Positions 8,459 to 24,013 of a stretch of DNA of 64,000 nucleotides are shown here, piece after piece. Both the position numbers and the translations under genes were made by a program. Source of the DNA: Yoonia maritima. GTDB lineage: Bacteria > Pseudomonadota > Alphaproteobacteria > Rhodobacterales > Rhodobacteraceae. The stretch's first letter is position 1. The number at the start of each line of letters is the position of its first letter. The notes below the pieces were generated by a model. That model ran no database searches. It saw only the letters and a list, made by a program, of their open reading frames with translations, and had not been told where the DNA came from. The stretch lies in contig NZ_PKFN01000013.1 of the NCBI RefSeq assembly GCF_002933395.1, positions 62,001 through 126,000 of the forward strand, written 5' to 3'.

Positions 8459-9231
8459 TCCGGATTAATGGGGTCAGTCATCAGATTGCGGGCATGCCTA
8501 TTCTATCAGATGTGACACTAACCTTGCCCAAGGGGGGCATTACCGCACTGATTGGGCCGAATGGCGCGGGCAAGTCTACGCTGCTTTCATTGATGGCACG
8601 CCTGACGCGTATTCAAAGCGGTAGCATTTCTTTTGATGATGCAAATGTTGCAGAAACACCGACGCAAGAGCTCGCCAAGCGGTTGTCGATCTTACGCCAA
8701 GACAATGTGTTGACTGCGCGCTTAACGGTACAGGATCTCGTTGGGTTTGGCCGGTATCCGCACCACAAAGGGCGACCGGGGCCGAATGATGTGAAACTTG
8801 TCAACGACGCCTTAGAGGCAATGGCGTTGACGCCGCTGCGAACACGGTTCCTGGATGAGCTGTCTGGTGGCCAGCGGCAGCGCGCGTTGGTCGCGATGGT
8901 TTTGGCGCAAGACACAGATTACGTACTGTTGGATGAACCCCTGAACAATCTTGATATGCGCCATGCACGCCAGATGATGATACGGCTACAGACGGCTGCC
9001 CGTACACAAGGCAAAAGCTTTGTCGTTGTGATTCACGACATCAATTTCGCTGCGGCCTATGCGGATAGGATTGTCGCGCTAAAGGACGGTCGTGTGCTCG
9101 CGACCGGAACCCCGGCCGAGATTGTGACCCCAGCGATGCTAAAGGATATTTTCGATCTTGATATTGTGGTGCAGCAAATCGCAGGTCACCCGTTTGCCCT
9201 GCATCAGATTGCACCGCCTTCGACGCAATAG
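8455..9231 (+). CDS. Siderophore ABC transporter ATPase
   Basis: A 258-residue FepC/VctC-type nucleotide-binding subunit. Walker A is GPNGAGKS (about residues 36-43), the Q-loop is in LRQDN, the ABC signature is LSGGQRQRA (about 138-146), Walker B is VLLDEPLNNLD (about 157-167) and the switch histidine is in VIHDINFA. It powers uptake of the ferric siderophore with the two permeases just upstream. It is followed 8 bases later by the reductase gene. Confidence 0.93.
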   Translation: MIRINGVSHQIAGMPILSDVTLTLPKGGITALIGPNGAGKSTLLSLMARLTRIQSGSISFDDANVAETPTQELAKRLSILRQDNVLTARLTVQDLVGFGRYPHHKGRPGPNDVKLVNDALEAMALTPLRTRFLDELSGGQRQRALVAMVLAQDTDYVLLDEPLNNLDMRHARQMMIRLQTAARTQGKSFVVVIHDINFAAAYADRIVALKDGRVLATGTPAEIVTPAMLKDIFDLDIVVQQIAGHPFALHQIAPPSTQ

Positions 9232-9239
9232 GATCCCGT

Positions 9240-10007
9240 ATGAACACCACTGCTCCGCAACTTTCCGACGCGTTCCGCCTTGCGGAATTAGTGTCGATTG
9301 ATCGGCCATTCCCGAGCTTCTTTCGTGTCACGATGCGCGCGCCTGATTTGCAGCGCTATACCGAAGGCGGGATGCATTTTCGTTTACTTCTGCCGCCAAA
9401 GGGTCGCACACCTGTTTGGCCTTATATCGACGAAACAGGTCGCGCGCGGTTCCCAACTGGGGATGATCAGCTTCACAATCCGGTCTATACTTTTGTTTCG
9501 GTCGATGTCGTTGCACAGCAGTTCACCTTTGATGTTTATATCCACGAAGGTGGAAGGATCACCGAATGGATGCGTAACGCGCGATTGGGCGACACAATCG
9601 GCATCAATGGTCCCGGTGGTGGCACGATGCCTGTCGCAGATAAGATCATTATGGCGGGTGACGAAACTGCATTACCTGCGATCCGACGGATTTTGGCGGC
9701 ATCGGCGGCAGATGTGACAGGCGCCGCCTATATCGAAGTTGGAGCGGCAGAGGATGTTCAGGACCTTAAAAAGCCTGCCGGGGTTGATCTGCGATGGCTG
9801 ATCCGCGGGCGCGATGTTGGTTCAGTACAAGCGCTGATTGATAATCATTCAAACCTGTCTGCTGACAACCCGCCGTTCGTTTGGTGCGGCGCTGAAAAAT
9901 CGCAGGTACAAAAGGCGCGCGCGCATTTCCGTGATACATTGGGCATTGGTACTGACCATAGCTATCTGTCTGGGTATTGGCGTCAGGCAAAGCCCACGGT
10001 AACATGA
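9240..10007 (+). CDS. Siderophore-interacting protein (FAD-dependent ferric-siderophore reductase)
   Basis: A 255-residue flavoprotein of the SIP/ViuB family, cytosolic, which releases iron by reducing Fe(III) in the imported siderophore. The N-terminal FAD barrel has FFRVTMRAPDLQRY and MHFRLLLPPKG, then TPVWPYID and YTFVSVDVVA; the flavin turn GDTIGINGPGGG lies near residue 119. The C-terminal half has AGDETALPAIRRIL (about 139-152), the typical SIP NAD(P)H-domain signature, and ends SYLSGYWR. It closes the uptake operon, so reduction probably complements the esterase 3 kb downstream. Confidence 0.88.
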   Translation: MNTTAPQLSDAFRLAELVSIDRPFPSFFRVTMRAPDLQRYTEGGMHFRLLLPPKGRTPVWPYIDETGRARFPTGDDQLHNPVYTFVSVDVVAQQFTFDVYIHEGGRITEWMRNARLGDTIGINGPGGGTMPVADKIIMAGDETALPAIRRILAASAADVTGAAYIEVGAAEDVQDLKKPAGVDLRWLIRGRDVGSVQALIDNHSNLSADNPPFVWCGAEKSQVQKARAHFRDTLGIGTDHSYLSGYWRQAKPTVT

Positions 10008-10008
10008 C

Positions 10009-10890
10009 TTAAATTGCGCAGTTGCGCATTGTTTGTGGTGGATGACCAAACGCCTGTCGGAACGCAGTCGAGAAATTCTCGGGTGTTGAATAGCCCGCAA
10101 TATGTGCTGCTTGTGCAACTGTGAATCCTTCTTCTGATAGGGCGCGGCGTGCCTGTATCAGCCGTTCACGTCTCATAAAGTTGCTTAACGTGATGCCGGT
10201 ACCCGTCTTAAAATGCCGTTGAAGCGAACGCCTGTTCATGCCCAAATCTTTTTCAATCCGATCCAGTGTCAAATCCTGATTAAGGTTGCGTAACAAATAC
10301 AGACGTATGCGTTCTGCAATCGGATGTGCGTCGCTGGGGGACTGGGCAGGTTCATTGATGCAGTCGGTCAAGGCCCGACGGATCAATTCCAGCGCACGAG
10401 AAATCCGAAACAGTTCCTTTTGCGTTGCGTTGTCTTGGGGAGGGGGTAGTAAAATTTGCGTCGCGAGCCGGGTCAGTTCGGTATCAATGGACCAAATGTG
10501 ATAGGTAAATGTAGTGCTGCCCTTGCATAGGCTAGCTGCAACAGTATCTCCGCTTGCGGTGAGTTGGTGTAGCCATTCGCTTGGCGTTGCCAGTGCGATC
10601 TTCCTGTAGGGCGCGCCATAGGAAATGTCGTAGTGTAGCTTTGCGGTGCGCCGCAGATGCATCATCATCGCGACAGGATGCTCTCTCGCGTCAAGTTCGA
10701 TCTGGTGATCGTCGATTGAAAATCGCTGATAGCCTTTTAACAGCACCATTATTTGAAACTTTGGATCGACTGTATCAACAGGCGGGCGTCGTCCGGGTGT
10801 CACGACCTCGTCTAGAACGCCGATGCGTAAATCGCCGGGAAATAGTTGAACCGCCATACTGTGTCGCCTTTGAAGTGCGTGAATAACCAT
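10009..10890 (-). CDS. AraC-family transcriptional regulator of siderophore genes
   Basis: A 293-residue regulator on the minus strand, between the uptake operon and the TonB receptor gene. The C-terminal 100 residues hold two helix-turn-helix motifs: LTLDRIEKDLGMNRRSLQRH and FTVAQAAHIAGYSTPENFST, followed by FRQAFGHPPQTMR. The N-terminal half resembles ligand-sensing AraC domains without a clear match. It may start at the ATG at 10857 (MAVQLFPG) instead. It is divergent from the receptor gene with about 130-150 bases between them, as for PchR- or YbtA-like activators that sense ferric siderophore. That role is inferred from position. Confidence 0.82.
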   Translation of the reverse strand: MVIHALQRRHSMAVQLFPGDLRIGVLDEVVTPGRRPPVDTVDPKFQIMVLLKGYQRFSIDDHQIELDAREHPVAMMMHLRRTAKLHYDISYGAPYRKIALATPSEWLHQLTASGDTVAASLCKGSTTFTYHIWSIDTELTRLATQILLPPPQDNATQKELFRISRALELIRRALTDCINEPAQSPSDAHPIAERIRLYLLRNLNQDLTLDRIEKDLGMNRRSLQRHFKTGTGITLSNFMRRERLIQARRALSEEGFTVAQAAHIAGYSTPENFSTAFRQAFGHPPQTMRNCAI

Positions 10891-11038
10891 TGTGTCGCGC
10901 GATCAAAGGTAAGAGTCGCCCGCGCAGGGGGCTGGCACGTGGACGCGCTGGCGTGGTCACTTTAGTAAACCTGATAGAAAAACTCAAGTAAATCGGACGT
11001 GGCCTTGCGTCCGGATAAGTATGTATTGGGACACGATA

Positions 11039-13153
11039 ATGACATTGCGAACAAACAGACATTCAAACGCGCGCCATCTAATCTTGGCTGGGCTTATGGC
11101 AAGCACAGCACTGGTCGGTCCAGCGTATGCACAAGATGCGATCAACATCGGCACTGTCGTTCTAGAAACAGAAGATGGTACTGCAATTGGCTATGTCGCA
11201 ACTGAATCGTCTGCGGGTACAAAGACTGATACGCCGCTGTCTGAAACGCCGATCACTGTAAATGTCGTGACCGCTGAACAGATCGAAGCACAGGGCGCTA
11301 ATTCCGTGGCGGAGGCTGTACGTTATGTTTCGAACGTACAGGGCGAATACCGCGGCACGTCGAATTTTCATGACGAAGTCATGATCCGTGGCTTCACATC
11401 TTATTCGGGAAAATCGTTAGACGGCATGTCGTTTGGGGGATCATCTAATGGTCAGCTTGATACATACCTGCTTGAAAGTGTTGAAGTCGTCAAAGGCCCG
11501 AACTCACTGACTTATGGTCAGGTCTCGCCCGGTGGTCAGATTAACCAGGTGCTAAAAACACCGACCGAGAGCCAAACAAACCGCGCTGAAATCGCGGTGG
11601 GTAGTGAGGATTACCGTCGCTTTAGTGCCGACCTACAGGGTGATCTGAACGACAGCGGTTCTGTGCGCTATCGTTTATTAAGTTCCATTTGGGATAAAAC
11701 AATCGAAAGCGGGCTGGGTCAAAGCCGTGTGCTTGTTGCGCCATCTGTAACGGCAAACCTGTCTGACCAGACCGAAGTCACTGTTTATGGCATTTACCAA
11801 GCTGACCCCGAAGCAGGTTATCGTAACCACCAAACGCAAGGCGGTACCCTAGAGGAAACGTCTGCGGGCTATCTATACCCAGATGGTTTTGCGTCTTACG
11901 CACCTGACTATGACGAAGCGGACCGCACGACGACTTCGCTCGGTTATGGGGTTGAACACGATTTTGGCAATGGTCTGACGCTTAACCAAAAGGCGCGCTA
12001 CAACACGATTGATCTGGATCACAAAGGTGTTTCGGGCGACGCAGTCACTGCTGATGGCTTGGGTGTTGATTTGTTCGCCTTCCATTCTGTGGATCACAGT
12101 GAGCAGCTGACAACCGATTCATATTTGTCCACATCGTTCGCGACAGGAACGATTTCACACGAGGTCGTCGGTGGTGTTGATACCCAATGGATCGAAACAC
12201 GAACCGACTATGCGCGCGCATTCGGTATCGGTACATATTACTTTGCAGACGGATCAACCACAGATCTAAGCACGATTACAGTGAACCCAGTATATGACGA
12301 AACCACAACTGTTACCCAAGTCGGCGCTTATGTGCAGGACCAAATGAAGGTTGGTAATTTTAGCGCGGTTGTTGGTTTGCGCCACGATTGGGCTGAAACA
12401 GACACTGGTGCGACGGATGGATCGTATTCATCCAACTTCACAGATGAAGCTACAACAGGGCGCGCTGCGCTATCCTACAAGTTTGCAAATGGTTTGATGT
12501 CATACGTCAGCTATTCTAGTTCATTCACTCCGGTTACCCGCAGCAGCGGTACGGGAACACCTTTTGATCCTGAAACGGCTGAGCAGTGGGAAATTGGTGC
12601 GAAATGGGCGACGCTTGATGGCGCGTTGCAAGTGTCCGGTTCAGTCTTTGATATCACCCAAGAAGGTGTGATGGAGTGGGTGTCCGGTGTTGGCTGGTCA
12701 CAAGTCGGCAAAGTTCAAAGCCGTGGTGTCGAACTTGAAGCGCAAGGTCAGGTGAATGACCGTCTGGCTGTCGTTGCATCATTCGCGCATCTTGATCCTG
12801 TTTACAAAGAAGGCGGAAATACCGGTAACCAACAACAGCGCGTGCCTTTGGAATCTGCCGCCGTATGGCTGGACTATGATGTGACCGAAGCCGTTGGCGT
12901 ATCTGTCGGTGGGCGCTTCATTGGCAAAAGTTGGGGCAATGCAACAAACACCGTCGAGGTGCCATCAACAACGCTTTACGACATCGGTATGACCGCTGAT
13001 TTAGGTGCTCTTAACAGTGGCCTAGATGGTATCGGCGCGCGCGTAGCAGTCACTAACGTTGCGGATACGCGCTATACCGCGTCCTGCACCAATGGGTATT
13101 GCTGGCAAGGCGAAGGCCGTGCTGTTGTCGCGACCGTCGGATACGAGTGGTAA
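11039..13153 (+). CDS. TonB-dependent outer-membrane siderophore receptor
   Basis: A receptor of about 704 residues that imports ferric siderophore through the outer membrane using TonB energy. A signal peptide ends PAYAQD. The plug domain follows: TPITVNVVTAEQIEAQGANS, then VMIRGFTSY, then LESVEVVKGPNSLTYGQVSPGG. The remainder is a 22-strand barrel with alternating aromatic strands, ending VVATVGYEW; a terminal aromatic residue is typical of barrel proteins. The ATG at 11039 (MTLRTNRHSN) gives the cleaner signal peptide; an in-frame ATG at 11021 adds six residues. The esterase gene begins 3 bases after the stop. Confidence 0.93.
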   Translation: MTLRTNRHSNARHLILAGLMASTALVGPAYAQDAINIGTVVLETEDGTAIGYVATESSAGTKTDTPLSETPITVNVVTAEQIEAQGANSVAEAVRYVSNVQGEYRGTSNFHDEVMIRGFTSYSGKSLDGMSFGGSSNGQLDTYLLESVEVVKGPNSLTYGQVSPGGQINQVLKTPTESQTNRAEIAVGSEDYRRFSADLQGDLNDSGSVRYRLLSSIWDKTIESGLGQSRVLVAPSVTANLSDQTEVTVYGIYQADPEAGYRNHQTQGGTLEETSAGYLYPDGFASYAPDYDEADRTTTSLGYGVEHDFGNGLTLNQKARYNTIDLDHKGVSGDAVTADGLGVDLFAFHSVDHSEQLTTDSYLSTSFATGTISHEVVGGVDTQWIETRTDYARAFGIGTYYFADGSTTDLSTITVNPVYDETTTVTQVGAYVQDQMKVGNFSAVVGLRHDWAETDTGATDGSYSSNFTDEATTGRAALSYKFANGLMSYVSYSSSFTPVTRSSGTGTPFDPETAEQWEIGAKWATLDGALQVSGSVFDITQEGVMEWVSGVGWSQVGKVQSRGVELEAQGQVNDRLAVVASFAHLDPVYKEGGNTGNQQQRVPLESAAVWLDYDVTEAVGVSVGGRFIGKSWGNATNTVEVPSTTLYDIGMTADLGALNSGLDGIGARVAVTNVADTRYTASCTNGYCWQGEGRAVVATVGYEW

Positions 13154-13156
13154 ATT

Positions 13157-14746
13157 ATGACCCTGAAATACGTTCGGGCTGCTCTACCGGTACTCTTTTT
13201 GAGTGCGAGTATCGGCATGTGTGAAGACCTCGGTAGTGACCTTTCTCAACAAACAACGTGGGTCGCGCCGGGGGAAACAGCGTCGTTTGAAGTGGATGCA
13301 ACGCCGGGTACCTATGTTCGGGGACGCTTGCATTCCTTGGGGCATCCCTTCGACCTTTCTTTGACCGACAAGACAGGCATGCATGTTCGGCGGCTGCTAG
13401 ACGACAACACAGGCGCTGGGCAGTTTCACGTTGTGATCGGCGAACAAGGGCAGCAATTTCGGGCGTTGAATGATGGTGATGTGGGGGTAGAAGTGACGCT
13501 TGAGATCGAACGCATTGTCACCCCAGATGAACAAATTGGCAAAACGACTGCTTATCTAAGCCCAGCAATTGCAGCACTTGCTGAAGGCGGTGATACGGAC
13601 GCGTTTTGGGCGGAACGTGCTGTTCAGGGTACTCCGATGGTTGAACCGTCTACACAAGACGGTCAAATCATCACGACATTCCTATGGCGAGGTGCTGAAA
13701 AAAACGTGCGGCTTTGGGGTGGTCCGGCGGCTGACCACATGTGGATGGATCGCCTCGGTGACACTGATGTGTGGTACATTTCTTTCAAAATGCCCGACAG
13801 CGGTCGCCTTTCCTACGGTTTTTCGCCAGATGTTCCGCAGTTCGACGGTAGCATGCGTGAAAACCGTGTGGCCTTGCTAGCCACCTTGCAAGCGGATCCG
13901 CTGAACAAGACGCCCGTCTATTCGGATGCGCCAGACCAATGGGCGCAGCGTTCATTCTTTGAAGCCCCGAACGCGCCCGTTCAGCCGGGGATGGTTGGCC
14001 AAGGTGATATTGCGGAGGGAACCATTGAACCCGGGCTGCTACGCGCGGTCGCTTTCTCAGATCGGAGAGTTGATTACTACCGCCCAGCAGATTTTGACCC
14101 AAGCGACCCTAGCACAGTGCTTTTGGTGATGTTTGACGGTCCAGCCTATCAGACAGAACGCGCTCCTATCCCCAAAATTTTAGATCGTTTGATCGCAGAT
14201 GGACGACTGCCACAAGTCGTTGTCGCGTTCATTGATCCGGTAGACGCTGATCAACGCGGTGTGGATTTGACGTGTAATCCTGAATTTCTCGATGTGTTGG
14301 CCAATGATTGGTTGCCGCAAATTGAGAGCACTTTGGAAATTGCACCAACGGCTGCGCAACGGGTTGTGTCTGGGTCTTCGTATGGCGGTCTAGCGTCGGC
14401 GTGCCTTGTGCATCGCCATTCCAGGACCTTTGGCAATGCGGTCGTTCTATCGGGCAGCTTTTGGTGGGCGCCACAAGGATACGAAGGCCAAGGAACCCCC
14501 TATGTTTCGTCGCTTTGGATGGATGATGCGCCTAAGGATGTTCGCATTTGGATGTCTGCGGGGATTTATGAAATCAGCCGTTTGCCGGGCAGCGTGTCGA
14601 TCTTTGAAACGACCCGGCACCTACGCGATGTGCTGACGTTACAGGGGATCAACGACGTGACCTACCGCGAATTCGTGGGCGGTCACGATTACCTTGTTTG
14701 GCGCGGCGCGTTAGCCGAAGGGTTGCTGCATCTTTTTGGTGACTAG
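13157..14746 (+). CDS. Enterochelin-esterase-like hydrolase, probably exported
   Basis: A 529-residue Fes/IroD-type alpha/beta hydrolase that would cleave the ester backbone of a trilactone or related catecholate siderophore. Layout: a hydrophobic export signal (about residues 1-20); a beta-rich PPC-like segment (about 35-115); the Fes N-terminal domain (about 165-255) with FLWRGAEKNVRLWGGPAADH; then the esterase domain. That domain contains VLLVMFDGPAY, the nucleophile elbow SGSSYGGLAS (serine in GSSYG, about 410) and a late histidine in GGHDYLVWRG. The signal is the notable point: E. coli Fes is cytosolic, while PfeE of Pseudomonas is periplasmic. It is in an operon with the receptor, and its 3' end overlaps galD of the opposite strand by 4 bases. 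Confidence 0.85.
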   Translation: MTLKYVRAALPVLFLSASIGMCEDLGSDLSQQTTWVAPGETASFEVDATPGTYVRGRLHSLGHPFDLSLTDKTGMHVRRLLDDNTGAGQFHVVIGEQGQQFRALNDGDVGVEVTLEIERIVTPDEQIGKTTAYLSPAIAALAEGGDTDAFWAERAVQGTPMVEPSTQDGQIITTFLWRGAEKNVRLWGGPAADHMWMDRLGDTDVWYISFKMPDSGRLSYGFSPDVPQFDGSMRENRVALLATLQADPLNKTPVYSDAPDQWAQRSFFEAPNAPVQPGMVGQGDIAEGTIEPGLLRAVAFSDRRVDYYRPADFDPSDPSTVLLVMFDGPAYQTERAPIPKILDRLIADGRLPQVVVAFIDPVDADQRGVDLTCNPEFLDVLANDWLPQIESTLEIAPTAAQRVVSGSSYGGLASACLVHRHSRTFGNAVVLSGSFWWAPQGYEGQGTPYVSSLWMDDAPKDVRIWMSAGIYEISRLPGSVSIFETTRHLRDVLTLQGINDVTYREFVGGHDYLVWRGALAEGLLHLFGD

Positions 14747-15795
14747 GACGCGGGGAAAACTTTCCCATCGAACAGTTTGCGCGCGGTCCTTAATGTGCCC
14801 GCGCGCTGAACCTGACCTTGTGTATCGCGTTCAATCAACACTTCGGCAGCACCAGTCGGATGTTCGATTGCGAATGTGTTGTCGGTTGGCAAAACCGCGA
14901 CGCTCGCGGCAGGCGATCCGGGCAATGTGCAGGCCGTCGCCACGCTAACCGCCGCAAAGACCCCAATCGTTGCGTGGCAGCGATGCGGAATAAAGCTACG
15001 GGTCGTGATCGTTCCGCTCTTTGGCGGCGCGACTAAGGTCATTTTCGGAACTGATTTTTGCGCGACATCACCAAGGTTCATCAGTGGCCCGCACTGTAGG
15101 CGAATTGCCTCTAACCGCGCTTTCAGCCCGGTATCAGCATCAAGCATTTCGCGGGGTTCATAGCCCGTTAGCCCAAAATCGGTGGCACGCATAATCACGC
15201 AAGGCATGCCGTTATCGATTAGCGTACATTCGACCCCATCTATAACATCGACAGCATTGCCAGAGGGCAACAGCGCCCCACACATAGACCCTGCGATATT
15301 ATCAAACATCAGTGGAATTGGCGCATGGGTGCCGAGAACGCCATCAATATGCGCGTCACCTGCGTAGGTCACGATACCGTCTGGCGTTTGCACGTTCGCA
15401 GTCGCGATTTCGCCGGTGTTTAGCATATGAATACGGACAGATGTTTCATTCGAATTGACAGGAACCAAGCCCCGTTCAATTGCGGCAGGGCCAACCCCGG
15501 CAAGGATATTTCCGCAGGCTTGGGCGTCTGTAACAATGGCCCGATCAACGAATACTTGTAGAAACAGATAATCGAGATCAGCGTCAGGGCGTGACGCTGG
15601 CGATATGATCGCCACCTTGGACGTTAGAGGATCTGCCCCACCGATCCCGTCGATTTGTTGCGGATCAGGTGATCCCATGATCCGCAACAACAATGCGTCA
15701 CGGTCGGCCGTGTCGGTGGGCAAATCGCACGCAAGAAAATATGCGCCCTTAGACGTCCCGCCGCGCATCCAAAGACATGGGATGCCTTCAGACAT
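14743..15795 (-). CDS. galD: 4-oxalomesaconate tautomerase-like (PrpF family)
   Basis: A 350-residue PrpF/DapF-fold isomerase. It starts [20 protein letters not shown], the PrpF/GalD N-terminal signature, and contains [33 protein letters not shown] (about residues 95-112) and the late motif [18 protein letters not shown]. In Pseudomonas putida, GalD converts the keto to the enol form of 4-oxalomesaconate. PrpF itself acts on 2-methylaconitate, so the assignment rests on the GalC and GalB partners immediately upstream on the same strand; it overlaps the GalC gene by 8 bases. Confidence 0.82.
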
Positions 15796-16459
15796 ACTTC
15801 AGACCCTTCTCTGCCAGCCGTGGCCGCATGTCGTAGATATCTAATCCCAGCTCACCCGCTGCTAGGCGCACGCGTTTGGCCTCTTCCGCATCAAGCCGTT
15901 TTTGCGCATTGACCAAGACTGCCGCGGCTTCGGCCTGTTTTACGACGACAACGCCATCATCATCCGCGACGATGACATCACCTGCGTCAATCGCTTGCCC
16001 TGCGCAAACGATTGGCACGTTCACAGAACCAAGCGTTTCTTTGACGGTGCCCTGCGCGCTGATCGCTTTGGACCAGACCGGGAAATTCATTTGGGTCAGG
16101 TCGCGAATGTCACGCACGCCCGCATCAATGATCAGCCCACGACAACCGTGCGCGATGGCCGATGTGGCGAGTAAGTCACCGAAATACCCGTTGTCGCAGG
16201 GCGATGTCGGTGACAGCACAAGAATATCGCCTGCCTGCAGCTGCTCGATCGCGACATGAAGCATCCAGTTATCTCCGGGCGCTGCGCTGATTGTGACGGC
16301 AGATCCAGCGATCTGTGCACCGCGATAAATCGGGCTCATGTAAGAGGCTAGGCAGCCTTTGCGACCCTGTGCCTCGTGAACGGTTGCGACGCCTGCTTCA
16401 CCCAGTTTCTTGATGGTTTCAGGGTCAGCGCGTTTCACGTTTTGAACAACTACAGACAT
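15788..16459 (-). CDS. galC: 4-carboxy-4-hydroxy-2-oxoadipate aldolase (RraA/HMG-CHA aldolase family)
   Basis: A 223-residue class II aldolase of the RraA-like fold. It would split 4-carboxy-4-hydroxy-2-oxoadipate into pyruvate and oxaloacetate, the last step of the 4-oxalomesaconate route. Visible motifs are the pyruvate-binding loop [17 protein letters not shown] (about residues 92-108) and the metal/substrate signature [11 protein letters not shown] with Arg-Asp near 116-117; [11 protein letters not shown] near the end is also typical. Its 3' end overlaps galD by 8 bases, and the VOC dioxygenase gene lies 9 bases upstream, so this is one operon. RraA itself lacks catalytic activity, but the neighbours favour an aldolase. 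Confidence 0.86.
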
Positions 16460-16468
16460 GGGGTTTCC

Positions 16469-17428
16469 TTATTTCTTAACCGGCGGCGTGCCGTGGGTGT
16501 GGAAGCTTTCGATGGTCTTTAGCCCCCAAGCCTGACCTTTCATGCGGTCGGCTTGTGTCCATTTGATTGGCTTCCAATCGGGAGCAAGGATCAGACGTGC
16601 GCCCGCATTCGCCAATTCCACGCGGTTCCCCGCAGGTTCCCAGACGTATAGAAAGAACGTCCCTTGAATGGCGTGTTTATGCGGGCCCGTTTCAATATGG
16701 ACACCGTTTTGCAAAAAGATATCAGCGGCTCGCAGGATGTCTTCGCGTTGGTCTGTGGCGTAGGTCACGTGATGAAGTCGGGCGTCGCCGCCGCCTTGTT
16801 CTTCGGTGCAGGCCAGATCGTAGGTCTTGTTATTCACCGTGAACCAGCAGCCGCCAATGCGTCCGTTGTCCAGTTCAATGTATTCCGTGACACGTGAACC
16901 AAGGCAGGTTTCCATGAACCGTTTGAATTCGGTCACATCACTGGAAAGTAGGTTCAGGTGGTCGATCCGGCGCGGCGCGGCACCTTCGAATGCAGAGGCC
17001 GTATTTTTCAGTGCGGCAACGTCATCGCCTTGGGCTTTGAACCAAACAGTATCGTAGTAAATTTCGAATACATGACCAAAGGGATCTTCGAAACGGAACG
17101 CCCGTCCGTGGCTTAAGTCGCCATCGTTCCAGCCGTGAACCTTATATCCGCTTTTCTCAATCACCTTAACGCGGCGTTCCAATGCTTCTGGCGAAGTGGC
17201 CCGGTAACCGATGTGACCAACCCCTGTGGTGTCCGCCTTCGTCAGCTTGAGCGTTGCGAATTCGTAATCGTCCCACGCCCGGAGGTACGCCGATGTCTCG
17301 TCCTGCCCAGAGAGCTTGAGACCATAAACGCGAGTAAAGAAATCAAGGCTTTCTTCGAATTTGTCGGTCAGCATTTCGACGTGACCCAAGTGCGCCATAT
17401 CGAATGATGGGTTTGTTGTGTCTGTCAT
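16469..17428 (-). CDS. VOC-family (type I) extradiol ring-cleavage dioxygenase
   Basis: A 319-residue two-domain vicinal-oxygen-chelate protein resembling catechol 2,3-dioxygenase. The start at 17428 (MTDTTNPSFDMAHLGHVEM) follows a gtgagg ribosome site; in-frame sequence before it is not protein-like. The C-terminal domain keeps a full 2-His-1-Glu iron site: His157 in RIDHLNLL, His219/220 in RLHHVTYA and Glu271 in NRVELANAG. The order and spacing match XylE-type enzymes (His153, His214, Glu265). A ring-fission role fits the adjacent galBCD-like genes, but known gallate and protocatechuate 4,5-dioxygenases are LigAB type, so the substrate is open. A trihydroxylated or carboxylated catechol is the natural guess. 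Confidence 0.82.
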   Translation of the reverse strand: MTDTTNPSFDMAHLGHVEMLTDKFEESLDFFTRVYGLKLSGQDETSAYLRAWDDYEFATLKLTKADTTGVGHIGYRATSPEALERRVKVIEKSGYKVHGWNDGDLSHGRAFRFEDPFGHVFEIYYDTVWFKAQGDDVAALKNTASAFEGAAPRRIDHLNLLSSDVTEFKRFMETCLGSRVTEYIELDNGRIGGCWFTVNNKTYDLACTEEQGGGDARLHHVTYATDQREDILRAADIFLQNGVHIETGPHKHAIQGTFFLYVWEPAGNRVELANAGARLILAPDWKPIKWTQADRMKGQAWGLKTIESFHTHGTPPVKK

Positions 17429-17439
17429 GCGTGTCGACC

Positions 17440-18174
17440 TCACAGCTCGTCTACGGTACGTGGGAAAATTGATTGGAACCCTTCGGCGTATTGGCAATCG
17501 CGTCCGCCGGATTGGCCGCCAGAGTTTCGCTTAAAGTGGTTCGCGCGCTGTTGGGCGACCCGGGTGTAATAGTCCCACAGGTGTACCTGACCCTGATTAC
17601 ATTCCATCGCTTTGCGTTTCTTGTCCCAGACTGACGTGATGTCGAGGAACGTATCGGGCTTCCAACCCATTTGTTCGGTTTGATGTGGCTCAAACAGGTA
17701 TAGCTGTGGCGCACCAAGAACCTTTTCACCGGGGTTATGTCCCCACGCTTGCGCGATCATCCGGCACTCAAGCGCGACCTGCGTCATATACATGTGGTCG
17801 GTGTTGTAGGGGTCGTATTGGCTGTGGCTCATCATGAATGACGGCTGCACCTTGCGGATAAGATCGACCAGTTTGAACTTGTCATCCTTATCAAGCTCAA
17901 GCGGATAATCCCCCAAGTCAAAGCATTCAAAGTGGTGCACACCAAGCGCGTCAGCGGCGGCTTCTGCTTCGCCGCGACGGTTGTCTTTGACTTCTTGTAG
18001 CGATTTGCCTTCTTTCCACAGACGCGCGCTCTCTCCTCTTTCACCAAATGACAGGCAGGCTACGGTGACTTCGTAGCCAAGCTCTGCGTGCAGCGCGATT
18101 GCGCCGCCACAGCGCCAAACAAAATCAGCAGCATGGGCAGAAATAATAAGCGCGGTTTTCTTTTGGGCGGTCAT
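17440..18174 (-). CDS. galB: 4-oxalomesaconate hydratase-like (PIG-L/LmbE family)
   Basis: A 244-residue zinc-dependent PIG-L/LmbE-fold protein. The family motif near the start is modified to SAHAADFVWRCGGAIAL (about residues 12-28), and a second metal-ligand region reads SHSQYDPYNTDHMYM (about 115-129). GalB of P. putida is a PIG-L-fold hydratase that adds water to 4-oxalomesaconate rather than a deacetylase, and the AHxADFVWR form of the motif is what I associate with it. The start at 18174 (MTAQKKTALI) was preferred over longer forms. It is first in the minus-strand operon galB - dioxygenase - galC - galD, divergent from the LysR gene. Confidence 0.82.
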   Translation of the reverse strand: MTAQKKTALIISAHAADFVWRCGGAIALHAELGYEVTVACLSFGERGESARLWKEGKSLQEVKDNRRGEAEAAADALGVHHFECFDLGDYPLELDKDDKFKLVDLIRKVQPSFMMSHSQYDPYNTDHMYMTQVALECRMIAQAWGHNPGEKVLGAPQLYLFEPHQTEQMGWKPDTFLDITSVWDKKRKAMECNQGQVHLWDYYTRVAQQRANHFKRNSGGQSGGRDCQYAEGFQSIFPRTVDEL

Positions 18175-18315
18175 GGAATTGCTCCGAAAAATCGTGGTTG
18201 TCCGACTGTCACATGGCAGTCCCCGGCAAAACAATTTTGAAGGCCGTCTATTAGGATAAGAATTTGCTATAGCGTATGGTCATGGTGGCCCTCGGATGGC
18301 AGGCTTGTTTGGGGG

Positions 18316-18373
18316 GATACGCATAATGTTTCGGTATCGCAGAGGGATAATTTAGTGAAAAGTAGCACGATAC
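18316..18373. promoter_or_regulatory. Candidate LysR binding region between galB operon and its regulator
   Basis: The 254-base divergent gap (18175-18428) contains three GATAC/GTATC half-sites: 18316-18320, 18334-18338 and 18369-18373. The first two form a dyad GATAC-N13-GTATC. LysR regulators often bind a dyad recognition site plus a second activation site nearer the promoter, which is the layout seen. The half-site is only 5 bases, so chance is not excluded. Confidence 0.35.
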
Positions 18374-18428
18374 TTGAATTAGGTCCTGTAACGCATTCTG
18401 CGCCAGATTACGGTTTGGAGCGCACGCT

Positions 18429-19613
18429 ATGATTTCGCGAAATCTTCGTCACTTTCGGGTGTTTCTTGCCGTTGCCACTTCGCGTTCACCGACTATAGCA
18501 GCGGCCCGGTGTAACGTGTCGCAACCCGCCGTGACCCAATCGTTGGCTAAGCTAGAGCGAGAAGCGGGTGGCGAACTTTTTGAACGTACACGTCACGGGT
18601 TCTTTTTGACCGAGCGCGGCGCATTGTTCGAAGATCGCCTACGCCGGGCTATGCAGCGCATGGATGCAGCATTAGCAGAGGTATCACCGCGTTTGACCGT
18701 GACAGCTACCGTTGCGCAATTGCAGGCGCTCATTGCGGTTGTTGGCGCGCAAAACTTCACCTTAGCTGCACGTCATTTGGGGTTGGCACAGCCCACGGTG
18801 CACCGGGCCATCATGCAGATCGAGCAAGAGGCCGCCCGCCCATTATTCGAGCGCACGACATTCGGTCTGGTCGCCACACGTCCGTGCCGTGATCTGGCAA
18901 AAGCTGCGCAGTTGGCGTTTTCTGAGTTTGATCAAACCGAAGCAGATCTAGGCGAATTTGACGGACGCGAAGTTGGAACAATTGTTGTGGGGTCACTGCC
19001 TTTGTCGCGGTCTGTCGTGCTGCCGCAGGCGTTAGCCCAGTTTCGTGCGCAGCGGTCGACGCAACCCGTGACCGTATTGGATGGGACTTATGATGATCTG
19101 TTGGGCGGGGTTCGTTCTGGCGAAATAGATTTTATGATCGGCGCTTTGCGTGATCCATTGCCAATTCGTGATGTCGAGCAAGAGCAGCTATTTTTAGATA
19201 GGATGGCGATTTTGGCGCGGCCTGCGCACCCATTGGTAGGTAATGTAGATATTGGGCTGGATGTTCTTGCAAAACAGCAGTGGGCAGTGTCACGTCAGGG
19301 TACGCCAAGTCGAACCCAATTTGATGACCTGTTTGCAACGGCGCAGATTGATGCACCGACCAGCATTCTTGAGTGCGGTTCCATTCTTTTGATGCGGGAA
19401 ATTTTGCAACGTAGCGATATGTTGGGCTGTATTTCTGAAAAGCAGGCAGAAGCTGAAACTTTACGTGGTTTGCTGGTCGCGCTGGATGTTGACACCAATT
19501 GGAAAGGTCGCCCGATTGGCCTGACTTATCGGACCGGTTGGGTCCCGACCAAAGCCCAAGCGTTGCTATTGGGGTTGGTACGCCGTGCTGCTGCGGCTTC
19601 GGGTCAGCTATAG
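18429..19613 (+). CDS. LysR-type regulator with two tandem HTH domains
   Basis: A 394-residue LysR-family protein, about 90 residues longer than usual because the N-terminal winged helix-turn-helix occurs twice. The first copy covers about residues 5-64, with SQPAVTQSLAKLEREAGGEL and the wing LFERTRHGFFLTERG. The second covers about 95-154, with AQPTVHRAIMQIEQEAARPL and the wing LFERTTFGLVATRPC. A normal periplasmic-binding-protein-like effector domain follows (about 170-390). It lies between the divergent gal-like operon and the downstream TRAP transporter genes, so it most likely controls both in response to an aromatic acid or ring-cleavage product. The start MISRNLRHFRVFLAV matches the usual LysR N-terminus. 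Confidence 0.88.
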   Translation: MISRNLRHFRVFLAVATSRSPTIAAARCNVSQPAVTQSLAKLEREAGGELFERTRHGFFLTERGALFEDRLRRAMQRMDAALAEVSPRLTVTATVAQLQALIAVVGAQNFTLAARHLGLAQPTVHRAIMQIEQEAARPLFERTTFGLVATRPCRDLAKAAQLAFSEFDQTEADLGEFDGREVGTIVVGSLPLSRSVVLPQALAQFRAQRSTQPVTVLDGTYDDLLGGVRSGEIDFMIGALRDPLPIRDVEQEQLFLDRMAILARPAHPLVGNVDIGLDVLAKQQWAVSRQGTPSRTQFDDLFATAQIDAPTSILECGSILLMREILQRSDMLGCISEKQAEAETLRGLLVALDVDTNWKGRPIGLTYRTGWVPTKAQALLLGLVRRAAAASGQL

Positions 19614-19731: not shown

Positions 19732-20703
19732 ATGCGCCTAACTACATCTATTGCCACTGCCGTTGTCGCTTTGTGGGCGACAAACGCAGTCGCCGAAGAG
19801 CTAAGCTTTGCCAACTTTATGCCGCCGGGGCATCCGTATGTTGCAGGCGCGTTCCAGCCGTTCGCTGACTTGGTTGGTGAAAAGACTGGCGGTGACGTGA
19901 CCGTGCGCCTTTATTCTGGAGGTGAACTTGGGCCGGGACCGGTCGAACAATATAACCGTGCTGTAGACGGTGTTGCCGATTTTGCGATCGGTCTTCCCGG
20001 TTACACCGCGTCGAATTTCCCATTGACGCTAACCGCTGAATTGCCCGGTGTGATCAACACCGAAACGGGTACGGCGGATTTGTGGGAAAACATTGATCTA
20101 TTCAAAGACGAATACCGCCGCGTGCAGCTGGTTTCGCTTTGGTCCAGCGCACCAAACGTCCTGTATACGCGTGATGTTGCTGTTCACAGCCCTGCGGACG
20201 TTGCAGGGATGAACATTCGGGTGCCGTCACGAAACGCGGGCCTTCAGGTCGAAGCATGGGGTGGTAACCCAGTATCCATGCCCGTGACCGAGATTTACAA
20301 TGCGATGCAAACCGGCGTGATTGACGGTGCGATGATCGACACAACCGCGACCCGTGCTTTCCGGTTGGGCGAAGTCGCCAATTATCTGACCCTTGGGTTC
20401 GAGGCGACGAATTCGCCGTTCTTCATCGTGATGAACCGTGATGCATTCCGTGGTCTGTCTGACGATGCCCAAGCCGCCGTGGTTGAGGCTGGCAAAGAGG
20501 CATCCGTGCTGGCGAACACCACCCAGCTAACCGTCGCCGAAGGCGGGATTGTCGCATTCGAAGAAATGGGCGGCGAAGTCGTTCGCCTAAGCGATGACGA
20601 AGCGGCAGCGTTCAACGTATTGTCTGCACCGATTGTGGATCAGGTTGTGGCCGACACGGGCGAAGCTGCACAAGCGGTCGTCGACGCGCTGACAGCGGAA
20701 TAA
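19732..20703 (+). CDS. TRAP transporter substrate-binding protein (DctP family)
   Basis: A 323-residue periplasmic binding protein with a signal peptide (about residues 1-21, ending AVAEE) and a cgggaggaa ribosome site. DctP hallmarks are FANFMPPGHPYV at the mature start, GMNIRVPSRNAGLQVEAWGG (about 160-179) with the arginine that usually salt-bridges the ligand carboxylate, and [17 protein letters not shown] (about 184-200). The predicted substrate is therefore an organic acid. Next to the ring-cleavage genes an aromatic or aromatic-derived acid is likely, but that is inference. The membrane subunits follow within 3 bases. Confidence 0.9.
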   Translation: MRLTTSIATAVVALWATNAVAEELSFANFMPPGHPYVAGAFQPFADLVGEKTGGDVTVRLYSGGELGPGPVEQYNRAVDGVADFAIGLPGYTASNFPLTLTAELPGVINTETGTADLWENIDLFKDEYRRVQLVSLWSSAPNVLYTRDVAVHSPADVAGMNIRVPSRNAGLQVEAWGGNPVSMPVTEIYNAMQTGVIDGAMIDTTATRAFRLGEVANYLTLGFEATNSPFFIVMNRDAFRGLSDDAQAAVVEAGKEASVLANTTQLTVAEGGIVAFEEMGGEVVRLSDDEAAAFNVLSAPIVDQVVADTGEAAQAVVDALTAE

Positions 20704-20706
20704 ACC

Positions 20707-21216
20707 GTGTCGCGTTTCAGTAAATCAACTTGGGCGGCGTGGTCCGCCCGGGTTCCCGGATTGCTGGCCATCGGGGCTGGCATCTGCCTTATTACCATGG
20801 TGATTATCGTCAGCACTGGCGTGATCTTGCGGTACGTTTTTGGCGCGCCGCTGCTTGGGGTGAACGAAATCGTCCAATTGGTCGCTGTTGCGCTGGTCAT
20901 GATGGCGCTTCCTTATGCGACCTACACGGGTTCGCATGTCCGGGTGGACCTGTTTGATAAACCGCTTGGACGTTGGGGGCGCTTGTTTGGTGACCTGATG
21001 TCGCGAACGCTGTCGATCATTGCCCTGTATGTTTTGGGCGGCCAGGCGTGGAAAAAAGCGGCCGAGGCTGTCGAATTTGATGATTTGACCAATATGCTCC
21101 AACTGCCGCTTTGGCCTGTTTACGGGACGATCTGTGCGGGTATGGCGCTGTGCGCGATTGTGTTTGCAGCGCAAATGATTGCGCTGATTTTCGGATGGAA
21201 GACGATAGATGACTGA
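20707..21216 (+). CDS. TRAP transporter small membrane subunit (DctQ family)
   Basis: A 169-residue four-helix membrane protein, starting at a GTG codon 3 bases after dctP stops. Helices fall at about residues 15-37, 52-70, 95-113 and 134-156. The LGVNEIVQL segment after helix 1 and HVRVDLFD between helices 2 and 3 are typical DctQ features. It pairs with the large subunit, whose start codon lies within the last 8 bases of this gene. Confidence 0.88.
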   Translation: MSRFSKSTWAAWSARVPGLLAIGAGICLITMVIIVSTGVILRYVFGAPLLGVNEIVQLVAVALVMMALPYATYTGSHVRVDLFDKPLGRWGRLFGDLMSRTLSIIALYVLGGQAWKKAAEAVEFDDLTNMLQLPLWPVYGTICAGMALCAIVFAAQMIALIFGWKTIDD

Positions 21217-22513
21217 CCTAGCTATTGGGATATTTGGGATCGGCGCATTGTTTGGGTTGATGATCCTGCGGACACCTGTCGCCTTCGCCATGCTTATGAC
21301 TGGCTTTTTCGGGGTTTGGTATCTTGACGGATTACGCCGTGCGACGGCGATTATGTTCACCGAAACCTATTCGTCGATCAGCAGTTACAATCTGATTGTC
21401 GTTCCGATGTTTGTCCTGCTTGGCAACATCGCGTCAGAGTCGGGATTTAGCCGCGCCCTTTATGATGCCGCCCATGCTTGGGTCGGGCGATTTCGGGGCG
21501 GTTTGGCGTCTGCATCTGTTATCGGGTGTGCGGCGTTTTCGGCTGTGTCCGGATCGTCGGTCGCGACTGCGGTAACAATCGGCCGTGTTGCACTGCCCGA
21601 GATGAAGCGCCTTGGCTACGGTCCGGGCCTATCGACGGGCGCCATTGCTGCGGGTGGTACGTTGGGTTTTCTGATCCCCCCTTCGACAGGCTTTGTTATC
21701 TACGCGATCCTGACTGAGGAATCGATTGGACGCTTGTTTATGGCAGGTATCCTGCCCGGTTTGCTCATGAGCAGCCTGTTCATCATGGCGATTTGGATCG
21801 TCACGTTGCGCAACCCGAATGCTGGCCCGCGCGGCGAAGCCAAGCCACTCGCGGAGCGTCTTCGTTTGTTTGGCCGCGCTGCACCTTTGATTGGGGTCAT
21901 CATGATTTCAATCGGTGGTATTTATTTGGGTGTTTTCACCCCGGTCGAAGCGTCTGGAGTTGGTGCAGGGCTGGTGATCTTGATTGCGTTGCTGACCGGG
22001 AGCCTATCACGCACCGGGTTTGTCAGTGCGATTGGCGACACCGTCAAAACATCAGCAATGCTATATATGATCGTGGTTGGGGCGAACGTTTTGAACCCGT
22101 TCTTGGCGATCACCGACATCCCGCTAGCGCTTAGCAATATGCTGACCTCCTTTGGGCTTGGGCCGTATGGGACGCTTGTGCTGATCTTGCTTAGCTATGT
22201 TGTGTTGGGCATGTTCTTGGATGGGCTGGCGATGCTGGTTGTAACCATTCCGATCTACTATCCGATTATTCTTGGCCTTGGTTTTGATCCAATTTGGTTC
22301 GGCGTGATCGCGGTGATCGTGATCGAAATGGGAATGATTACTCCACCTGTCGGGTTGAACGTTTTCGTCGTGCGTAGCGTCGCCGAAGACATTCCACTGC
22401 ACACGATCTTTAAGGGCGTTATACCGTTTTTGATCGCTATGATTGTGACGTTGGTCTTGATCATCCTGTTCCCGCAAATCGCGCTTGCGATCCCGAACTC
22501 TATGTTTGGGTAG
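21209..22513 (+). CDS. TRAP transporter large membrane subunit (DctM family)
   Basis: A 434-residue, roughly 12-helix sodium-coupled transporter subunit. DctM motifs include NLIVVPMFVLLGNIASESGF (about residues 50-69), AFSAVSGSSVATAVTIGRVALPEMKR, and the GGTLGFLIPPSTGFVIYAILT half-helix with its second-repeat counterpart EMGMITPPVGLNVFVV near 374-389. It forms the membrane part of the importer with the DctQ subunit it overlaps by 8 bases. About 110 bases without a gene follow before the DUF1338 gene, so that gene may have its own promoter. Confidence 0.92.
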   Translation: MTDLAIGIFGIGALFGLMILRTPVAFAMLMTGFFGVWYLDGLRRATAIMFTETYSSISSYNLIVVPMFVLLGNIASESGFSRALYDAAHAWVGRFRGGLASASVIGCAAFSAVSGSSVATAVTIGRVALPEMKRLGYGPGLSTGAIAAGGTLGFLIPPSTGFVIYAILTEESIGRLFMAGILPGLLMSSLFIMAIWIVTLRNPNAGPRGEAKPLAERLRLFGRAAPLIGVIMISIGGIYLGVFTPVEASGVGAGLVILIALLTGSLSRTGFVSAIGDTVKTSAMLYMIVVGANVLNPFLAITDIPLALSNMLTSFGLGPYGTLVLILLSYVVLGMFLDGLAMLVVTIPIYYPIILGLGFDPIWFGVIAVIVIEMGMITPPVGLNVFVVRSVAEDIPLHTIFKGVIPFLIAMIVTLVLIILFPQIALAIPNSMFG

Positions 22514-22624
22514 CCGGGTTAGTCGGTCTCACGTCATAAGACTATTCAGCGTCGTCAAAGCATGGTTTACAAATGACCGTGGCCATTCGTTTGGCCCGGT
22601 CGTTGAATGCAAGGATGAACCGTG

Positions 22625-24013
22625 ATGACCCCGAATTTTGCACAACCTGACACGATCCGCTCTGATTTTTCAGCGGCGATGTCAGCGATGTACCGGACAG
22701 AGGTCCCAGCCTATGGCGACCTGCTAGAGATTGTTCAGGACACAAATGCCGCGACCCTGAACGGGCCATCGGCGGCAGGGTTGAACCTCACACCTGACGA
22801 AGACACCACACGCATTTCCGAAGAACGGCACGGTGCGATCCGGCTGGGTACAGCGGATGAGCTGGCAGTGATGGCACGCGTTTTCGCGGTGATGGGGATG
22901 TTCCCTGTAGGCTATTACGACCTGTCGGCGGCTGCGGTGCCTGTGCATTCGACCGCCTTTCGGCCAACGACCCGCGCTGCACTGGCTGCGAATCCGTTCC
23001 GCGTATTTACTTCGCTGTTGCGCCTAGAATTGATCGCGGATGAAACGCTGCGCGCGCAAGCCGCGGCCATTTTGGCAAAGCGGCAAATTTTCACCGCTGA
23101 TGCCGTCGCCCTGACCGAAAAAGCAGAGGCCCAAGGCGGTCTGTCACCCGAAGACGCGACAAAATTCGTGGCCGAGGTGTTGGAAACCTTTCGTTGGCAC
23201 GCCGACGCCTGCGTCGATATCGACACGTTCAATCAACTGAACGCCGCCCACCGCCTGATTGCAGATGTGGTTTCGTTTAAGGGTCCGCATATCAATCACC
23301 TTACCCCGCGCACGTTGGATATTGATGCCGCGCAGGTCGGCATGGTCGAACGCGGCCTGCCTGCCAAAGCCGTCGTCGAAGGCCCGCCGCGCCGTAATTG
23401 CCCGATCTTGCTGCGACAGACATCGTTCAAGGCGCTAGAGGAACCCGTGAATTTTCCGTCTACCGATGGCACAGAGACAGTTGGTAGCCACACCGCCCGT
23501 TTCGGAGAGATCGAGCAGCGCGGCGTCGCCCTGACACCTAATGGTCGCGATCTTTATGATCTGACGCTTGCAGCAGTTCGCGCCGAAATACTGCCTGCAG
23601 GCGATGGATCGAACGCTGACGCATATATGACCGCGTTGTCAGATGCGTTCAAAGTGTTCCCTGACGATTGGCGTGGTATGTATGATCAAGGCTTGGCCCA
23701 TTTCAAATTCTCGATCGACCATATGCCAGAGGTTATTCGCGACCTAGAAACAGTCGCGCTGTTAGATGCAGGTGTGCTTAGCCTTAGCCCGATCATCTAT
23801 GAAGATTTCCTGCCAGTCAGCGCCGCAGGCATATTCCAATCAAACCTTGGCGATGATGCAGGGCAAGATAGTCACAACGCATCCAGCAAAGTCGAATTTG
23901 AAAAGGCACTGGGCACAACCGTGGCCGATGAATTCGCGCTTTATCAACAGATCGAGGATGCGTCGCTGTCGGCCTGCCTAGATCAAATTCGCAAGGCAGG
24001 CCAATCGGCTTAG
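22625..24013 (+). CDS. HglS-like DUF1338 protein (2-oxoadipate dioxygenase/decarboxylase family)
   Basis: A 462-residue member of the YdcJ/HglS family (VOC-superfamily fold). P. putida HglS converts 2-oxoadipate to D-2-hydroxyglutarate with iron and O2. Counting from a GTG at 22622 just upstream, the metal triad is visible: His70 in EERHGAIRLG, His226 in GPHINHLTPR and Glu296 in RFGEIEQRG; Arg74 in GAIR is the family's substrate arginine. VPVHSTAFRP and NPFRVFTSLLRLELI are further signatures. Placed after an aromatic-acid TRAP importer, it may act on a substituted 2-oxoacid of the pathway or simply serve lysine breakdown. The start is GTG 22622 or ATG 22625. It is convergent with the GH3 gene, with 1 base between stops. 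Confidence 0.8.
   Translation: MTPNFAQPDTIRSDFSAAMSAMYRTEVPAYGDLLEIVQDTNAATLNGPSAAGLNLTPDEDTTRISEERHGAIRLGTADELAVMARVFAVMGMFPVGYYDLSAAAVPVHSTAFRPTTRAALAANPFRVFTSLLRLELIADETLRAQAAAILAKRQIFTADAVALTEKAEAQGGLSPEDATKFVAEVLETFRWHADACVDIDTFNQLNAAHRLIADVVSFKGPHINHLTPRTLDIDAAQVGMVERGLPAKAVVEGPPRRNCPILLRQTSFKALEEPVNFPSTDGTETVGSHTARFGEIEQRGVALTPNGRDLYDLTLAAVRAEILPAGDGSNADAYMTALSDAFKVFPDDWRGMYDQGLAHFKFSIDHMPEVIRDLETVALLDAGVLSLSPIIYEDFLPVSAAGIFQSNLGDDAGQDSHNASSKVEFEKALGTTVADEFALYQQIEDASLSACLDQIRKAGQSA

Follow-up and report, generated by a model that had tools for sequence, protein, structure and literature searches.

Within a 64,000-nucleotide stretch of the Yoonia maritima genome (the window; contig NZ_PKFN01000013.1, positions 62,001 to 126,000), four genes form a compact minus-strand operon, galB-voc-galC-galD (positions 14743-18174 of the window), whose second gene encodes a two-domain VOC-type enzyme. 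We propose that this VOC protein is probably an unrecognized type I gallate dioxygenase standing in place of GalA, with gallate as its predicted substrate, a reading well supported by the genomic context. The evidence is computational and consists of the identities of the genes, an intact metal site, the conservation of the block, the absence of GalA and LigAB from the assembly, and the linkage of relatives to tannase and LigM. The first-pass annotation, made from the window's letters alone, had placed GalB-, GalC- and GalD-like enzymes in one minus-strand operon with a two-domain VOC enzyme, and this arrangement was borne out by the open reading frames and by the same four-gene order in other genomes. 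Contig C13, from an assembly of 3.67 Mb with a completeness score of 100%, carries the operon, whose genes are tightly spaced, with 11 nucleotides between galB and voc, 9 between voc and galC, and an 8-nucleotide overlap of galC and galD. The four genes are as follows:

17440..18174, minus strand: galB, a PIG-L-fold 4-oxalomesaconate hydratase of 244 amino acids, first gene of the operon (5cgz, E 4e-95; PF02585)
16469..17428, minus strand: voc, a two-domain catechol 2,3-dioxygenase-like protein of 319 amino acids, the proposed type I gallate dioxygenase (domain and family matches, alignments)
15788..16459, minus strand: galC, a 4-carboxy-4-hydroxy-2-oxoadipate (CHA) aldolase (NF006731, 382 bits, cut-off 179; TIGR02798, 372 bits, cut-off 304.5)
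14743..15795, minus strand: galD, a 4-oxalomesaconate tautomerase (NF033377, 516 bits, cut-off 440)

Profile and solved-structure matches indicate that the three gal genes encode the complete set of tautomerase, hydratase and aldolase for 4-oxalomesaconate. GalD matched the solved oxalomesaconate isomerase 6p3j (E 1e-152), GalC matched 3noj (E 4e-91) in addition to exceeding the cut-offs of both CHA aldolase models, and GalB matched the solved 4-oxalmesaconate hydratase over nearly its whole length, far above the next PIG-L proteins; no NCBIfam model scored GalB over its own cut-off. In the known route, GalA yields 4-oxalomesaconate, on which GalD, GalB and GalC then act (PMC12314914). The lower pathway here is this GalBCD route, and the earlier suggestion of an undescribed pathway thus narrows to its first step: what is new is the ring-opening enzyme and its Tyr-type active site, not the pathway as a whole.

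Domain searches assigned the VOC protein a tandem pair of VOC/glyoxalase domains in the extradiol dioxygenase fold and found neither a LigB nor a LigA domain in it. Its scores against the models for catechol 2,3-dioxygenase (TIGR03211, 295.2 bits, cut-off 320.2) and 3,4-dihydroxyphenylacetate 2,3-dioxygenase (TIGR02295, 204 bits, cut-off 321.4) fell under the respective thresholds. For comparison across genomes, we used a scan of named genomes and took the best 80 of at least 487 stretches encoding a relative; all 80 are at least 80% identical, and the rest need not all belong to the clade. In an alignment with homoprotocatechuate dioxygenase (HPCD; 1f1x), His157, His220 and Glu271 align with the iron ligands, which we take to be His155, His214 and Glu267 in HPCD numbering, and all three are invariant in the 81 rows formed by the window and the 80 loci. 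The complete 2-His-1-Glu site predicted earlier (His157, His219/220, Glu271) therefore stands with His220 as the second ligand; His219 is likewise invariant (81/81), yet it lies one residue ahead of the ligand position. The HPCD position His200, a catalytic residue, is occupied by tyrosine in all 87 rows of the voc clade and by histidine in all 11 rows outside it. A second-sphere catalytic histidine is usual for type I extradiol dioxygenases, though not strictly defining. The corresponding codons are:

16958..16960, minus strand: His157, iron ligand, aligned with HPCD His155 (81/81)
16769..16771, minus strand: His220, iron ligand, aligned with HPCD His214 (81/81)
16616..16618, minus strand: Glu271, iron ligand, aligned with HPCD Glu267 (81/81)
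16820..16822, minus strand: Tyr203, at the place of HPCD catalytic His200 (alignment)

Residues invariant in the clade also include His250 and Arg278, and these are kept, together with Tyr203, in relatives of 58-59% identity on Methylobacterium and Roseomonas plasmids, which carry a galC homologue within 8 kb. Four remoter relatives (39-43% identity) are of the His type, and the roughly 8-9 kb examined to either side of them contain no gal gene. In a phylogenetic tree, the voc clade has a support of 99/97, with some outgroup branches very long and suspect; rhizobial, roseobacterial and Halomonas sequences are intermixed in it, which suggests horizontal transfer.

The four-gene block is conserved in other genomes. 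Of the 80 named loci, 66 have voc flanked by 4 kb or more of sequence in either direction; counting neighborhoods in these 66, we found galB-voc-galC-galD contiguous and on the same strand in 44. At least one gal gene lies near voc in 59/66, galB, galC and galD are all present in 55/66, and a hydratase (GalB or LigJ-like) accompanies galC and galD in 56/66; the LigJ-like label is one we presume ourselves, the domain search giving only Amidohydro_2. The closest named relative, again from Yoonia maritima, shares 97% VOC identity. Plasmid regions of the clade carry the four genes in order in 6 of 7 cases, one with a small extra open reading frame between them, and the seventh, from Pantoea, has galBCD 6-9 kb from voc; in Halomonas (L075) the order is galD, amidohydrolase, galC, voc. 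Recurrence of the four-gene order in other genera and orders is not chance. No relative of voc was found on viral contigs. In a sample of 198 genomes of the same family, 36 with voc and 16 with LigA, galD occurs within 10 kb of voc in 24 of the 36 voc-bearing genomes (one a fragment at a contig end), and strong galD matches are present in 29/36 of them versus 23/162 of the others (p 2e-14).

Relatives of the operon provide clues to the substrate. Tannase releases gallate, LigM forms it from 3-O-methylgallate, and a single step turns it into 4-oxalomesaconate. Tannase genes are part of the cluster in 5 of the 80 named loci, four from Paracoccus (after galD in L020 and L023, between galC and galD in L028 and L039) and one from a Rhodobacterales metagenome-assembled genome (L051, after galC, where the contig ends); one was identified by Pfam (PF07519, E 8e-118) and the other four are 67-78% identical to it. 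An Agrobacterium plasmid (walnut) likewise carries tannase directly after galD. We also performed a LigM and tannase search in 26 of the 43 genomes with strong voc matches. LigM, a 3-O-methylgallate demethylase, exceeded its cut-off in 16 of these 26, and in 8 (G188, G256, G217, G141, G202, G104, G034 and G060) it shares a contig with voc at a distance of 2.5-9.5 kb, compared with roughly 0.1 expected by random placement (26 genomes × 20 kb / ~3.9 Mb); in a ninth, G144, the LigM match fell below the cut-off. Tannase exceeded its cut-off in 3/26, in none of them within 10 kb of voc. The genes form a single run, ligM-dctP-dctM-galB-voc-galC-galD, in G034, a genome from the same genus as the window, and G104 and G256 have both LigM and TRAP genes beside voc. 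This linkage to tannase and LigM points to gallate. Two options had been left open from the sequence, replacement of the LigB-type enzyme at the gallate step or a different substituted catechol as the starting substrate; these neighbors, and an assembly with neither GalA nor LigAB, favor the former from context and make the latter less likely.

The same neighbors bear on the possibility that the VOC protein cleaves 3-O-methylgallate, or another O-methylated trihydroxybenzoate, and that GalBCD takes the demethylated product, which we regard as unlikely. LigM and DesA-like genes do occur near voc in several genomes, galA lies beside voc in one genome (G064), and a LigAB-type 3-O-methylgallate dioxygenase feeds the galBCD operon in Pseudomonas NGC7 (PMC12314914). 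On a Roseomonas plasmid, a LigB-type dioxygenase, an alpha/beta hydrolase and a VanA-type gene surround a 59% identical voc. However, the fission product of 3-O-methylgallate needs a methylesterase or a pyrone lactonase before it becomes 4-oxalomesaconate, and the operon contains neither; tannase within the cluster releases gallate and not its methyl ether; and the Yoonia maritima genome has no LigM. A search of this genome with a LigI query also gave no match, the query being an amidohydrolase that we take to be LigI, used with no positive control; its best NCBIfam model, below cut-off, is 4-sulfomuconolactone hydrolase. The Roseomonas cluster (L142:408-17585) additionally carries a galC homologue and VanA/VanB-type genes, and its VOC relative is of the Tyr type.

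About equally improbable is that the VOC protein acts on some other polyhydroxylated aromatic, such as protocatechuate, pyrogallol or a hydroxylated phthalate, with the galBCD grouping reflecting another entry to 4-oxalomesaconate. A phenol-hydroxylase-type monooxygenase near voc in 6/66 named loci would fit this, as would one locus (L018), at a contig end, where voc neighbors class II aldolase and shikimate dehydrogenase-like genes. As we understand it, the products of protocatechuate and pyrogallol cleavage reach 4-oxalomesaconate only through extra enzymes, and these are not in the operon. Specifically, the protocatechuate 4,5-cleavage route needs a semialdehyde dehydrogenase and a pyrone lactonase, and the operon has neither gene. 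Protocatechuate could moreover be served in Yoonia maritima by an intradiol pair (PF00775) encoded on other contigs, which is protocatechuate 3,4-dioxygenase-like by its arrangement. The monooxygenase at L085:504-2423, whose homologues mark the six loci, belongs to the phenol 2-monooxygenase family (NF006144, 1036 bits, cut-off 560).

In the Yoonia maritima assembly, a profile search for LigA (PF07746) gave no match. Its single LigB-domain protein, encoded on another contig, belongs to the 4,5-DOPA dioxygenases (NF007914, 284 bits, cut-off 233), and on this family assignment we rejected it as a gallate enzyme. The earlier statement that no LigB-type gene lies in the window is accordingly correct, and a LigAB- or GalA-type gene elsewhere in the genome, named beforehand as the finding that would overturn the proposal, is absent from the assembly. 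These searches also bear on a third alternative, in which the VOC protein has an accessory or side activity (repair, or detoxification of alkylcatechols) while the ring is opened by another enzyme. Broad specificity is common among catechol 2,3-dioxygenases, and gal clusters without voc exist; even so, we consider this alternative highly improbable, as voc sits inside the operon between galB and galC in 44/66 loci, and LigB, LigA and intradiol searches of the genome gave no other candidate for gallate ring opening save the intradiol matches on other contigs.

The distribution of voc and LigA in other genomes agrees in part with replacement of GalA by the VOC protein. The first-pass annotation had asked whether LigAB-type genes are absent from genomes with the block; in this partial survey LigA had no match in 34 of the 36 voc-bearing family genomes, while both occurred in the other 2. 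Restricting the comparison to the 52 family genomes with galD of at least 480 bits, we found both in 2, voc only in 27, LigA only in 13 and neither in 10 (p 1.3e-4), suggesting that voc and LigA are rarely together; the 480-bit threshold was picked after the scores had been seen and lets in some distant galD copies, which share about 50% identity with the GalD of the window.

Several observations weigh against assigning gallate cleavage to the VOC protein. Across all 198 family genomes, mutual exclusion of voc and LigA is not significant (both in 2, G064 and G101; voc only in 34; LigA only in 14; neither in 148; p 0.74). A class-wide sample gives no support for exclusion either, as strong voc matches occurred in 5 of 289 genomes and 2 of these (G411 and G345) also have LigA. 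In G411, voc is beside a cluster with galB, galC, galD and LigA/LigB matches. G345 carries voc on a different contig from the gal genes, which are accompanied by LigB-type genes, a layout that one might anticipate where a single lower pathway serves two ring-opening routes. One gene run in G064 (L092:7373-12760) contains a true gallate dioxygenase GalA (NF009904, 720 bits, cut-off 412), TRAP genes and voc, suggesting redundancy or a different substrate for voc.

No gal gene was found within the flanks of voc in 7/66 named loci (L015, L031, L035, L065, L077, L083 and L086), one of which, L077, has a LigJ-like gene and TRAP genes near voc. Three of the 36 voc-bearing family genomes lack any galD match (G079, G227 and G201, an 84% complete genome whose voc is at a contig end), and galD is weaker or partial, with no full copy of at least 480 bits, in G073, G118, G192 and G255. 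galB-galD clusters occur in genomes without a voc (E 1e-60) or LigA match (for example G084, G107, G133, G143, G150 and G208), with galC called in about half of those examined. Thus gal genes alone are no proof of gallate cleavage next door, and the lower pathway can be fed otherwise. The Yoonia maritima genome itself yielded neither LigM nor tannase in profile searches, so its gallate would need to come from import or from other reactions. Its intradiol pair could presumably also act on gallate as a side reaction.

At the active site, HPCD becomes very slow once His200 is lost (PMC10760822), so Tyr203 needs explaining. A relative may, in addition, already be under study by someone: PDB 9wgj, deposited as "Catechol 1,2-dioxygenase", is the nearest solved chain by sequence, 51% identical to voc over 305 columns, with a tyrosine at the place of Tyr203. 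It differs from the voc clade at the clade-invariant His250 and Arg278, among other positions, and no paper was found for this code in a literature search. HPCD Arg243 and Arg293, which we take to be carboxylate-binding, are replaced here by Thr247 and Gly298, so the carboxylate of the substrate would need other contacts.

In the mechanism that we propose for gallate cleavage, the operon would encode every step that takes gallate to pyruvate and oxaloacetate. In the VOC protein, His157, His220 and Glu271 would hold a mononuclear metal center, probably Fe(II), at which gallate (3,4,5-trihydroxybenzoate) binds, and the enzyme would use O2 to cleave the C4-C5 bond, giving 4-oxalomesaconate, which GalD would tautomerize, GalB hydrate and GalC split. 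Each carbon of the cleaved bond carries a hydroxyl, and the same acid should therefore result whether the attack is extradiol with respect to one diol or intradiol with respect to the other. The change from the catalytic histidine to Tyr203 may reflect gallate as a special substrate. On balance, we lean toward a broader view in which one VOC clade, spread horizontally among Rhodobacterales, Rhizobiales and some Gammaproteobacteria, is an undescribed family of gallate dioxygenases that has replaced GalA/DesB and serves the breakdown of tannins and syringyl lignin; with the canonical catalytic histidine absent, proton transfer in these enzymes may depend on Tyr203, perhaps together with the substrate's third hydroxyl.

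The proposed reaction, its product and the partners GalB, GalC and GalD are shared with GalA of Pseudomonas putida and DesB of Sphingobium SYK-6. Those enzymes, however, belong to the LigB superfamily (type II, with LigB and LigA domains), and the VOC protein, with its glyoxalase/VOC domains, has an unrelated fold; DesB is described as type II (PMC3962378), and AromaDeg files gallate enzymes under LigB (PMC4250580). The type I enzymes catechol 2,3-dioxygenase, AphC (3lm4/7q2a) and HPCD are at most 34% identical to the VOC protein, which differs from them in Tyr203 and in its linkage to gal genes. Pseudomonas NGC7 has the same lower pathway through galBCD but differs in ring opening, performed there on 3-O-methylgallate by MgaAB (PMC12314914). 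The catechol 2,3-dioxygenase BLC23O of Bacillus ligniniphilus, a VOC-type enzyme, has been assayed on gallic acid by Folin-Ciocalteu, and the account of this assay gives no cleavage product (PMC9925492). BLC23O is inactive on pyrogallol, and protocatechuate is not among its active substrates (PMC8671467). Searches of the open PMC literature turned up no type I gallate dioxygenase associated with a galBCD operon, a result that gives weak evidence of absence.

Gallate is the core of hydrolyzable tannins and a product of syringate demethylation. If the gallate assignment is true, surveys that rely on LigB alone would miss gallate catabolism in many marine and plant-associated bacteria, and genes of the clade, which are annotated as catechol 2,3-dioxygenase, BphC or "VOC family protein", would gain a function. 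The natural change from His to Tyr, in an active site that has been studied in depth, opens a question about the extradiol mechanism to direct testing, and the VOC enzyme would be a different enzyme option for lignin conversion.

Beyond the operon, a divergent LysR-type regulator and a set of TRAP transporter genes follow on the plus strand:

18175..18428, no strand assigned: galB/LysR intergenic region, presumed promoter region (sequence read)
18429..19613, plus strand: LysR-type regulator, divergent, presumed regulator of the operon (two HTH_1 stretches ahead of the substrate-binding domain)
19732..20703, plus strand: DctP, TRAP solute-binding protein, presumed substrate uptake (PF03480, NF037995; homologue in 25/66 named loci)
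20707..21216, plus strand: DctQ, TRAP small permease (open reading frame named by position and by homologues in 26/80 named loci)
21209..22513, plus strand: DctM, TRAP large permease (open reading frame named by position; homologue in 31/66 named loci)

A homologue of the LysR protein, which probably controls the operon, accompanies voc in 52/66 named loci, and the TRAP transporter probably imports gallate or a precursor. After the TRAP genes lies hglS (22622-24013), encoding a 2-oxoadipate dioxygenase/decarboxylase (NF049974, 679 bits, cut-off 550), an adjacency common to just 1 of the 80 named loci. A gene for a DUF1932 NAD(P)-dependent oxidoreductase (L091:10167-11054) is found near galB in 27/66 named loci and also in gal clusters without voc. 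Among such clusters, six loci (L103-L107 and L109) have galB and galD, with galC called only in L103, L106 and L109, and no voc, LigA or recognized ring-opening gene nearby. A functional tie between the operon and the siderophore genes on its other side, through a shared catechol theme, was considered and rejected, these genes being common only to the Yoonia maritima locus among the 80 named loci. This siderophore uptake set (7325-14746) is convergent with galD, overlaps its 3′ end by 4 nucleotides, and comprises an ABC permease and ATPase, a siderophore-interacting-like protein, an AraC-type regulator and a TonB-type receptor (recognized by eye) as well as an enterochelin esterase-like protein (Pfam).

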